Shown here one piece after another: positions 34,201 to 39,188 of a stretch of 64,000 nucleotides of DNA (position 1 is the first letter of the stretch; each line of letters starts with the position of its first letter). The notes under the pieces were generated by a model. The model had not been told where the DNA came from and made no database searches. It saw only the letters and a list, made by a program, of their open reading frames with translations. The stretch covers positions 16,889,827 through 16,953,826 of the forward strand of contig NC_090791.1 in assembly GCF_040054535.1 (NCBI RefSeq), in the 5' to 3' direction. The DNA is from Antennarius striatus. Lineage: Eukaryota > Chordata > Actinopteri > Lophiiformes > Antennariidae. The translations under genes were made by a program, and so were the position numbers.

Positions 34201-37200
34201 ATGGTCACTGGCAGCATGACATCAGTCAGATTTATGACCCTCGTCTTCGTAAGTTTCTCCCAGCAGCTTCTAGCACTGACACTGGAATTAGGAGATGTGA
34301 CTAATGATCTAAAGTGAAATACAAATATCAGAGCTATGACAGTTATATACTCATTACATTTTACAGGCTTGCACTTTTTATTTAAAACATGTCATCACCT
34401 ATTGTGTGCATCTGACATGTTTTCCTCCTCTTTGCCCGATAGGTGTTCATACACGAAATCGACCTGTCTAAGGCGGCCTGCTGCAACTATTTTGAGGTCC
34501 AGCAATGGGTACATGATCATCATTTTTTCATTCGGACGCCAAGTGCTTAATTTCACCTTCATGTTTTCGTTGTCCACACCGGTATATCGTGATTTAGTGT
34601 GGGATAGTTTGTGCCTTGTTTCTCGTGCAAAAGCTGAAAATTCCTGAGACAGAATTCCGTCTCGTTAGAGTCGATCTTTCTCAGTCAACAGTTGATTTGT
34701 CTTTCCTGGTAATCCAGCATCATCCAAACAGTTATGGCTTCATTTCTTTAAATGAAGCAATAATATCAACATCCTAAATCTATTTGTTTGAACAATTCAC
34801 GCACCAAAAATCTAAATGTTCACACAATTACTAGGGAATTTCCATCAGTGTATTTCTCTTCACTTTCTAGAGTGCAAATCTGTCAAGCATTATCTCCTTC
34901 ATAGAGACCAAGGATATGAAGGTAACGTACTGAAACAGCGAGCATCACTGACCAGCTGACAGTCGACTATAAATTCCTTTTGTTCTGCAGAACTGTACTG
35001 AGTTCTATTTCATCTGGTCTTTTCTCCGATGCCCAGGACAGAATAGAATGTACCATCGAGAGAGAGGCGCTAAATGGAAGAAAGATTACACTCAACATTC
35101 TTCGACATTGCTTCGATCGATTTGTAAGTCAGCCGTACCAACATGTTCTGTCATGTTGTACATGATACTGCTGTGTTGTTAAATATTGTTTTTTACGTTT
35201 TATTTTTTCAACACAGGAGAAGCCTAAGGTTATTAGTGAAAAGTGTGAAGGGGGTGTTTCTCAGACCGTTCCTTTCTATCATTTCATGTGCTTGACTGCA
35301 AAGGTTGTATCTTGTTCAACCAGTCCTCCAGCAGGTGATCAAGATGACACTCATCCCTAAAACACTCAATTTTAATCCAAATGATTAAAGCTTGTAAATG
35401 ATTGCTATTATTGCTGATGGCAGTAAATCAGCACAGAAGCCTACTAAAATTGTAAATCTCACGATTGTCTTCTCTCTTCTTTCATCACAGCCTGTGAATA
35501 CGGTGAGTTTCTGAGTGTGTGTGTGTGTCAAGTCAAGGTGTGTCAAGTCGAGGTTTTTCTCTACTATTTATTCTACCAGATGATATGTAATGATAAAGTT
35601 TGTTGCAGTAATTTTTGGTACATTGAAATTATTTGAAGCAAAAGAAAAATGTTTTTGCCTTATCAAAATAACTGAGGGTGTGGGGCGTCGGTGTGACGGA
35701 GGGACTGCTTGTCTGTTAGGTCTTGTTAGCCTGATTATTATTATTTTTTCTTATAACACATTACATTTATAAATGGTGGCTCACATTTTCTAATATTGGT
35801 TCTTTTTTTTTTTTTTCTTAGATACCATGTGCAGAGAAATAAACGGTAAGACAACCCATTGATGTAATAAATGCATGTAAATGAATTACATTCACAGAAT
35901 ACATAGTCATCTCCTGCAGCATTCCATCCCCCCACCCACGCACATATATCACATCCGCAGAGGCAGACACTTTGTGGAATCTTGCACAAACGTGCTTTAC
36001 AGTAACACATCTGACATGATTTGCCCCACGTGTAGCTGCTGGGTAGCTGCAGCTGATCAGCTCGTGTCACCACACATTAATATTCCTACTACAGTTTCCA
36101 CAGTAAGATGTTAACTGACTGACTGATTTCCCACCTTCAGCTTTTGGCCAGACATCATCAATAACCTCACCAACAACAACAGCAAGGACATTGTCTGAGG
36201 CCATCTTGAGAAATGGTAAGATATGACTGGAGGTTGGGTATCTGTTTTGGTAAAACTGCAGGTATCACTTATTCACAATCAAATACTGTATATTTGTGTC
36301 TTTGCTCACTGAGGAGATATCAAATAATAAATCATTGAGATCTTGAAGCCTTAAGTTGATATTCGAATCGGTCAGAATCTGTTTGCGTAACAAGTTGACT
36401 GTGTCGTTACGCTTCAATAATTAATTACACGGATTTCCACAAAATCTGAAGAGGAGGTTGGGCGTGGACCCAGGAAAGTTTACTCCAAGTTCACGTTTCA
36501 TGGATGGGATTAAGGACATTTACAGAGCTGGAATCCATTAGTGTGTGCCTATGTGCGTGTGTGTGTGTGGGTGGGTGGGTGGGGGGTAGACTCTTTCAGC
36601 TTCTTGTTTAAGTTTTTAAAAAAGAAGCCTAAAACAACCCAACTCCCCCCACTGCGTAGCAGAGTTATTGTGGAATCTGTACGGTTTTAACATCTGTTAG
36701 AGCTGGACTGACTATAGAGGGAATATTTAATCTGTGTCCGCTCCTCTGAACACCAGTGTTCTAGTCTGACAGTGACATTTACATTTGTAATGACAGAAGT
36801 TTCTTCTTTCCAAAGCTCAAACATCAAACAGAAGTGATGAACAAGGTAAGAATTCTCCCTGTTCTAAACACTTTACTTGTAGCTGATTATTGGAATGTTT
36901 CTGCTGTAAAATATCATGAAGCAGCGGGAAGGTGAACAGCTTCAGTGTTGAAGGGTGTGTTTATAATTTACAGCTATAGTTCTCTGTCTCTCTCTCTCTC
37001 TCTCTCTCACACACACACACACACACACACACACACACACACACACACAGACACACACACACACACACACACACACACACACACACACACACACACACAC
37101 ACACACACACACACACACACACACACACTCACATTTCTATGTTGTAGACAACCAGCCAAGATTAATAAATCATGAGTAAATAAAGAAATAATGCATGCGA

Positions 37201-39188
37201 AAGAATGTTAAAGAATTATACTACTACTACTACTACTACTACTACTACTACTACTACTACTACTACTACTACTACTACTACTACTGCTATTACTACTACT
37301 ACTACTATTAGTACTACTGCTGCTGCTACTACTACTACTACTAATATTACTACTACTACTATTAGTACTACTATTACTACTACTGCTGCTGCTACTACTA
37401 CTACTACTACTACTATTACTACTACTATTACAACTACTACTATTAGTACTACCATTACTACTACTGCTGCTGCTACTACTACTACTACAACTACTACTAC
37501 TACTATTACTACTACTACTATTAGTACTACTGCTGCTAATACTACTACTACCACTACTACTACTACTATTACTACTATTACTACTGCTACTACTAGTACT
37601 ACTACTACTACTACTATTAGTACTACTACTATTACTACTACTACTGCTACTACTATTACTGCTACTACTATTAGTACTACTACTATACTAATATTACTAC
37701 TACTACTGCTACTGTTACTACTACTACTACTACTACCATTACTACTACTACTACTACTACTACTATTACTACTATTCCTAATACTATTAGTACTACTACT
37801 ATTACAACTACTACTAATGCTACTACTACTACTACTATTACTACTACTATCACTACCGCTACTACTATTACTACTACTAGTAGTAATAATTATTATTGTT
37901 GTTATCTTTATTATTATAGTAGCAATAAAAACCTATGATCAAAACAGGAAATCACACGAGGACTACATGAATAAAATACAATAGACTAATATACTTCACA
38001 TTAACACAAAGTAATGATAATAAAATATATTAACCCTTTATGGTGCACTCACTGAAATACTATAAAATTCAAAAATTCAAACTTTAGAGTGTTATTGGAG
38101 GACATGGCTAAACTTTTATAAAAATGTTTCAAATTTTTGTCAATGTCATAGAAAATAAAGGTGAAATAAAATAAAGTACACTACAGAAGCTGATATTGTT
38201 ATATATTTTGTTGAAGTAGTTACCGTAGTAACTCCCTGTACTATAAAGTCACTTGATCATTCACATGTTAGCTTTAAGAGAAGTTGTCTCTGCTCCCGCC
38301 TGAAGGAGAGCTCTTCAACCTGAAGGCGGTGTTACTGATGTCGGCCGTCCTCCATGTGGTTGTGCTGCTGACTTTCTATCTGTGCATGCGCCGGCAAAGG
38401 AGGAAGGACTTCGGACCATCAATGAGTCTCAGCAGACGCTCAGAACCTTCATGGCTACCAGTATGTCACCTGTTCTTAGATCTCAGTACCTTTCGAACGG
38501 TAGTGTTGGCTCCTCCTCCATTTGGACTTTCACCTCGTAAACAGTTATCTTATCTGATCCCAAGTCAAGAGCTCTAAGTACTTTTGGCGTTCTCTGTCGG
38601 CTAAATTATTTGTCTCAACACGCATCTTTTATGACTGCTTGTGCTCACTACAAACTTCTTTGCTCTCTTGAAATGCTGTAAATATGCATCTGCTCTGTTT
38701 CAACCTGAAACTATTATTTACCAGGTATTAGGCTGGAATAACAAGATGATATTAGAGGCCTGAGTCACTCTGGTAGTTGGAAAAATCTCAAATCCCATTA
38801 GTTTTTATCGTATTGATTCAGCATCATGCTGTTTAGGGTTTTTTTTTAGATTTAAGGAGTAAAATGTCTGGATACTTCTCTCTTATTTCAGTGGGAAAAA
38901 AATGAGCATTTTTATCTAGTTTTGTCCAAAGAAAAGTGTCTTATTAGCTAGCCACTGTGTGATGAAAAACAGACTGCAGAAAGTACCTGGACTGATGAGG
39001 TCAATTTAAGGAGTACATCCAGACAGGATGGGTGTTCTGATTTACATTTTTATTTTGAAATATTTTTTGCTCCTTTTTACACACATACAGACCTCAGCAT
39101 CACATCAATTTCACTGTCATTTCTTTGTCAGAATGTAATCCCTGTGTCAAACACAGCCCCATCAGAAGCTCAGCCATTGACTTCCTGA
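34201..39188 (+). CDS. Single-pass membrane protein, Flt3-ligand-like architecture
   Basis: Eleven exons join in phase without a stop: 34201-34248, 34443-34508, 34871-34921, 35037-35123, 35217-35334, 35491-35502, 35822-35845, 36141-36215, 36816-36845, 38306-38460, 39132-39188, giving 240 aa. A signal peptide (MTSVRFMTLVFVF, with Met1 or Met6 as start) precedes a head of about 100 residues with seven cysteines, then a Ser/Thr-rich stalk, a membrane helix (about 178-198, VLLMSAVLHVVVLLTFYLCM), a basic stop-transfer RRQRRK and a 36-residue tail. The acceptor at 35036 is used because the earlier one at 34990 runs into a stop at the next junction. I do not recognise the head sequence. Human FLT3LG is 235 aa with its membrane helix near 185-205 and is close to PIH1D1, so a Flt3-ligand-type helical cytokine is possible. 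Receptor-type alternatives are not excluded. Confidence 0.65.
36986..37128. repeat. (CT)n-(CA)n compound microsatellite
   Basis: A CT run (about 36986-37008) passes directly into about 120 bases of CA in the intron before the transmembrane exon of the membrane-protein gene. Confidence 0.95.
37219..37885. repeat. (ACT)n trinucleotide array, about 670 bp
   Basis: An imperfect ACT/ATT/GCT trinucleotide array fills much of the 1.46-kb intron before the transmembrane exon at 38306. It creates a 259-codon poly-Thr/Leu frame on one strand and poly-Val on the other; both are artefacts. Its length makes expansion and assembly error likely. Confidence 0.95.

Follow-up and report, generated by a model that had tools for sequence, protein, structure and literature searches.

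The 64,000-nucleotide stretch of Antennarius striatus DNA analysed here (the window, C16:16889827-16953826) lies on a 21.2-Mb contig of a 548-Mb genome and carries, in this order, cpt1 (carnitine palmitoyltransferase 1), a candidate gene at 34201-39188 on the plus strand, and pih1d1. The candidate is probably a real gene encoding a type I membrane protein, in single copy as far as searched, and we suggest that it is plausibly an unrecognised teleost Flt3 ligand, a reading to which we assign a probability of about 0.37. In mammals Flt3 ligand drives the growth of dendritic cells and early blood progenitors, and with this locus, whose exon chain can be tested, the open question of a fish Flt3 ligand comes within reach of a simple experiment. 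Eleven exons join in phase, with no internal stop:

Exon 1, 34201-34248, plus strand: start of the signal peptide, with an alternative ATG at 34216; ends in phase 0 at a GTAAGT donor.
Exon 2, 34443-34508, plus strand: end of the signal peptide, a Cys-Cys pair and the start of the head; phase 0 on both sides; the least certain exon.
Exon 3, 34871-34921, plus strand: 17 residues of the head, without cysteine; phase 0 on both sides.
Exon 4, 35037-35123, plus strand: 29 residues of the head, with one cysteine towards each end; phase 0 on both sides.
Exon 5, 35217-35334, plus strand: 39 residues of the head, with three cysteines; enters in phase 0 and leaves in phase 1.
Exon 6, 35491-35502, plus strand: 12-nt micro-exon with one cysteine; phase 1 on both sides.
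Exon 7, 35822-35845, plus strand: 24-nt micro-exon with one cysteine; phase 1 on both sides.
Exon 8, 36141-36215, plus strand: Ser/Thr-rich stalk; phase 1 on both sides.
Exon 9, 36816-36845, plus strand: stalk, with the N-glycosylation sequon NRS; phase 1 on both sides.
Exon 10, 38306-38460, plus strand: membrane helix and basic tail; enters in phase 1 and leaves in phase 0.
Exon 11, 39132-39188, plus strand: end of the cytoplasmic tail and the stop codon.

All introns are of the GT-AG type, their phases running 0, 0, 0, 0, 1, 1, 1, 1, 1, 0 along the gene, and the exons have a GC content of 0.461 versus 0.364 in the introns (0.382 when the repeat-filled intron 9 is excluded). The product has exactly 240 residues when exon 10 starts at 38306, and 249 when a weaker acceptor upstream, at 38279, is used. 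Translation from the ATG at 34216, which has an A at -3 and a context arguably better than that of the ATG at 34201, would give 235 residues, and an acceptor at 34190 suggests an exon of 5' untranslated sequence upstream of exon 1. Within 34190-34296, a donor downstream of that of exon 1 would yield another signal peptide, and exon 2 could then be left out without a frame shift. Intron 9 is filled at 36981-37900 by very long simple repeats of the CA and CTA types.

Nine cysteines (residues 29, 30, 60, 80, 94, 109, 117, 125 and 131) are packed into the roughly 105 residues of the head, sequons lie at residues 41 and 165, and the stalk has a Ser/Thr/Pro fraction of 0.41 over residues 137-170. 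The hydropathy peak at residues 179-197 marks the membrane helix, which is followed by a basic juxtamembrane stretch and a tail that ends at residue 240; the signal peptide was assigned by eye. A sequence-only reading of this DNA had described eleven splice-defined exons without a stop, and a 240-residue product close in length to human FLT3LG (235 residues) and consisting of a signal peptide, a cysteine-rich head, a Ser/Thr stalk, one membrane helix and a basic tail. The chain could be rebuilt exactly from the sequence, its exons read open in phase with none of the frame breaks named there as a refutation, the length was confirmed, and the anatomy is borne out by sequence and hydropathy.

The neighbourhood of the candidate is defined by three genes, two within the window and one beyond it on the same contig:

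cpt1 exons, 11704-27036, plus strand: identified by tblastn with human CPT1A.
pih1d1 exons, 47817-50865, plus strand: identified by the Pfam family PIH1 (E 5e-11) and by tblastn with human PIH1D1.
aldh16a1, about 112.2-120.5 kb on the window scale, minus strand: identified by Pfam and by matches to human ALDH16A1.

The candidate is 8.6 kb from pih1d1 and about 73 kb from aldh16a1, where the Pfam aldehyde dehydrogenase match reaches E 4.8e-22 and seven pieces match human ALDH16A1 at 36-48%, with E of about 2e-7 and 3e-7 for the best two. Human FLT3LG adjoins ALDH16A1 and PIH1D1; RPL13A flanks it on the opposite side, and CPT1C and PRMT1 lie no more than a few hundred kb away. In the fish the best prmt1 match is on the candidate's own contig (C16:18.35 Mb), and rpl13a is on another (C17). 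Beyond the window follow troponin T, synaptotagmin, ferritin, aldh16a1 and then kat7, and on the other side a brsk gene lies at about -4 kb and a gene resembling N-acetylglutamate synthase at about -58 kb (all names except aldh16a1 given by eye). The troponin T, synaptotagmin and ferritin genes part aldh16a1 from pih1d1, which are adjacent in human. According to passages of two published reports, TEAD2, PIH1D1 and ALDH16A1 lie together in coelacanth and Xenopus (PMC3530029, PMC4015844), and gar and teleosts possess the neighbouring genes (PMC3530029). The synteny argument of the sequence-only reading, which named PIH1D1, gains strength from gene content, with pih1d1, cpt1, aldh16a1 and prmt1 all on this contig, but the order is changed and other genes stand between.

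Two places where a better candidate might lie were inspected and rejected. Beside rpl13a, the 10 kb upstream on the plus strand gave, with Pfam, exons of an M48 protease and of IATP; between synaptotagmin and aldh16a1 there were ferritin exons and no signal-head-helix gene by eye, in an inspection that was not exhaustive. Of the downstream flank, 5,000 bases are N. Within the window, Pfam was run on both strands at 1.7-11.6 kb and 51-60.5 kb and on the plus strand at 39.2-48.2 kb, and Rfam gave no family above its gathering score anywhere in the window. Downstream of pih1d1, LINE-type reverse transcriptase frames occupy 61801-63492 (plus strand), and 58389-58487 (minus strand) resembles a chromodomain at 22.4 bits, short of the Pfam cut-off. 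This may be what is left of a retroelement, and the area also gives a high minus-strand splice-chain score. ARAGORN reports a tRNA-like sequence with an odd four-base anticodon at 59399-59470.

We compared the candidate with ten known proteins, among which human FLT3LG ranked best both in local alignment (Z = 3.4, a value reached by 13 of 2000 shuffles) and in single-sequence hhalign; IL-2, IL-4, IL-13, Thy-1, CD59, lysozyme, beta-2-microglobulin and CCL2 were not above it in either. Head exons 3, 4 and 5 carry 0, 2 and 3 cysteines, with one near each end of exon 4, and this matches human FLT3LG under the human exon limits assumed here. When cysteines were placed at random, the counts were matched in 6506 of 200,000 trials and the counts together with the end positions in 578 of 200,000, a comparison that is post hoc. 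By exon, and again under the assumed human limits, all six conserved FLT3LG cysteines, which form three disulphides, have counterparts in the candidate, which adds three extras, while the sole local sequence match pairs the cysteines differently. Phase-0 introns, such as those of the head, are usual for helical cytokines, and a phase-1 style is usual for Ig, sushi and TNFR modules.

Several observations weigh against a Flt3 ligand. The sequence similarity between the candidate and FLT3LG is insignificant, and the Flt3 ligand profile PF02947 does not match the candidate at E up to 10 (as a positive control, human FLT3LG scores 237 bits with it). The head is shorter than that of FLT3LG. No helix D is evident in it, which is the strongest point on this side. 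Crude propensities, a poor test, do not favour helices A, C and D: they favour helix at about residues 50-68 and 82-93, but beta is mostly above helix at residues 31-49 and 72-80, although windows that start at 68-77 have a high helical moment, and exon 5 is beta-prone and contains Gly and Pro. Finally, the TEAD2/PIH1D1/ALDH16A1 set is broken up here, with the candidate on the pih1d1 side and not beside aldh16a1 as in human, in a rearranged neighbourhood whose genes have their counterparts at human 19q13.33, 19q13.42 and 17q21.

We consider it about equally likely that the gene encodes a type I surface protein specific to a fish lineage, from no recognised family, unrelated to Flt3 ligand and located there by chance. 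It could be, for instance, a receptor or an adhesion molecule whose head is rich in disulphides and not helical. The number of cysteines, the beta-prone stretches and the rearranged neighbourhood all suit such a protein. Searches for relatives point the same way: Pfam gave no family for either the protein or the head up to E = 10, and the PDB gave no match for the head up to E = 10, in line with the sequence-only reading, which could not assign the head to a family. Scans of IMG/VR and GTDB contigs returned pattern matches, none of them confirmed, and a search of the same genome found no paralogue, all matches below E 0.5 being at the candidate's own locus and the next on C14 at E 0.59; this search ran exon by exon and could miss a diverged copy. 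The phase-0 introns of the head and the placement of its cysteines, however, suit a helical cytokine better than the common disulphide-rich modules.

Absent sequence matches are weak evidence in this setting, because a human KITLG query also fails to find a convincing exon in the same genome (best E 4.85). The SCF profile reaches 19.5 bits in the genome (cut-off 21), the CSF-1 profile finds nothing, and the SCF match was rejected since it looked like a chance membrane helix. Zebrafish does have kit ligands, as stated in passages of PMC6306437. We put Flt3 ligand first because no other explanation covers neighbourhood, build and intron phases at once. Of the two options offered by the sequence-only reading, a Flt3 ligand with an extremely divergent head and a surface protein new to fish, neither is clearly favoured: stronger synteny, phase-0 head exons and cysteine counts speak for the former, and the lack of sequence-search support, the shorter head without an evident fourth helix and the rearranged neighbourhood speak against it.

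When pieces with the lengths of the exons were drawn at random from the window 20,000 times, 1 draw was without internal stops, a figure that ignores the freedom of splice-site choice. A fairer control is a search that uses no codon usage: given generic splice-site weights from textbook frequencies, and stop codons, it seeks the highest-scoring chain of open exons that are bounded by splice sites and joined in phase. Applied to the block 34100-39299, it recovered to the base eight of the nine internal exons, namely exons 3-10, and its optimum is one continuous in-phase chain. The chain scored 36.3 at a penalty of 9, where the maxima of Markov-3 controls (300 + 300) were 27.8 and 29.3, and 21.3 at a penalty of 10.5, where they were 16.7 and 18.7; none of the 600 controls matched the chain at either penalty. 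At penalty 9 only 4 of 92 window blocks scored above that of the candidate, all of them in cpt1.

The gene model also has its weak points. Exon 2 was not chosen by the codon-free search, which took another 5' route, and its donor is weak (score 1.4). Block 58501 on the minus strand, in which no gene was identified, scores 35.4, close to the candidate, and over a 264-kb stretch the candidate block ranks 35th of 400 overlapping blocks; nine stretches of these 264 kb were translated, and several fall within recognisable genes or retroelements, some others being less clear. When codon usage learned from cpt1 and pih1d1 (1102 codons) was added, the best chain in 27101-47600 was reached by 0/100, 1/100 and 1/100 controls at penalties 8, 10 and 12, and it contained five of the nine internal exons to the base at penalty 10 but only two of nine at penalty 12. 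The coding scores of exons 4-9 are negative, and at penalty 10 cpt1 scores 190 versus 18 for the candidate chain. Codon-based support is therefore weaker, which may fit a fast-evolving protein but also a wrong model.

That the gene is real but its model partly wrong, either at exon 2 or at the join of head and membrane parts over the 1.5-kb intron 9, such that the head is misread or two genes are merged, is an unlikely explanation. It draws on the unrecovered exon 2, on alternative acceptors at exons 4 and 10 and on the poor codon-based scores; against it, the exon 9 donor is strong, exon 10 resumes in the right phase, and the codon-free optimum runs through both. Overall, we consider it highly probable that the gene is real and its model mostly right.

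One receptor-kinase gene (C20:7.042-7.046 Mb) is closest to FLT3 among seven relatives over one exon, at 31 of 44 positions; PDGFRA comes close with 30 because the comparison extends past the exon end. Agreement between its exons and the FLT3 kinase is 44 to 81%, the values of 81 and 80% being the top of the list and other kinase genes reaching 79%. These matches suggest that the genome carries a flt3-like receptor gene. A second receptor kinase lies about 20 kb away; in human, FLT1 similarly lies close to FLT3.

A passage of PMC6424866 states that FLT3L has not been identified in any fish species, and a passage of PMC6306437 considers that zebrafish may lack flt3l or that divergence may have hidden it, while describing it as present in Latimeria and elephant shark. 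The main text of PMC3466250, which the latter cites for these two species, does not contain the terms searched for. Among the matches listed in the literature searched, no report of a teleost Flt3 ligand was found.

In the proposed ligand, the Ser/Thr stalk and membrane helix would hold a disulphide-tied and putatively helical cytokine head at the surface of stromal or immune cells, which may also shed it. The predicted ligand would pair Flt3 receptors on blood progenitors, and this pairing would start kinase signalling. A slightly less probable form of this reading is that the candidate is the long-missing teleost Flt3 ligand with its head reduced to a minimal fold, tied by extra disulphides and co-evolved with fish Flt3; if so, such a head would explain why sequence searches never found the ligand.

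Among known systems, CX3CL1 and CXCL16 resemble the candidate in having Cys-Cys near the mature N-terminus, a mucin-like stalk and one membrane helix, whereas its cysteine spacing and intron phases are unfit for a chemokine domain. A CC chemokine on a mucin stalk was rejected: after the Cys-Cys pair the next cysteines follow at 29 and 19 residues, Pfam gives no match, and CCL2 had the second lowest hhalign score of the ten proteins (9.3). A diverged membrane-bound helical growth factor related to Kit ligand or CSF1, and not orthologous to Flt3 ligand, is very improbable. KITLG, CSF1 and FLT3LG, all of them ligands of class III receptor kinases, have the same membrane-bound cytokine build as the candidate, but KITLG and CSF1 align with it at chance level and their chromosomal neighbourhoods differ. 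Human FLT3LG differs from the candidate in lacking the three extra head cysteines, and resembles it in the type I head-stalk-helix-tail build, in similar length, in phase-0 head exons (under the assumed human exon limits) and in having pih1d1, aldh16a1, cpt1 and prmt1 in the neighbourhood, though in a different arrangement.

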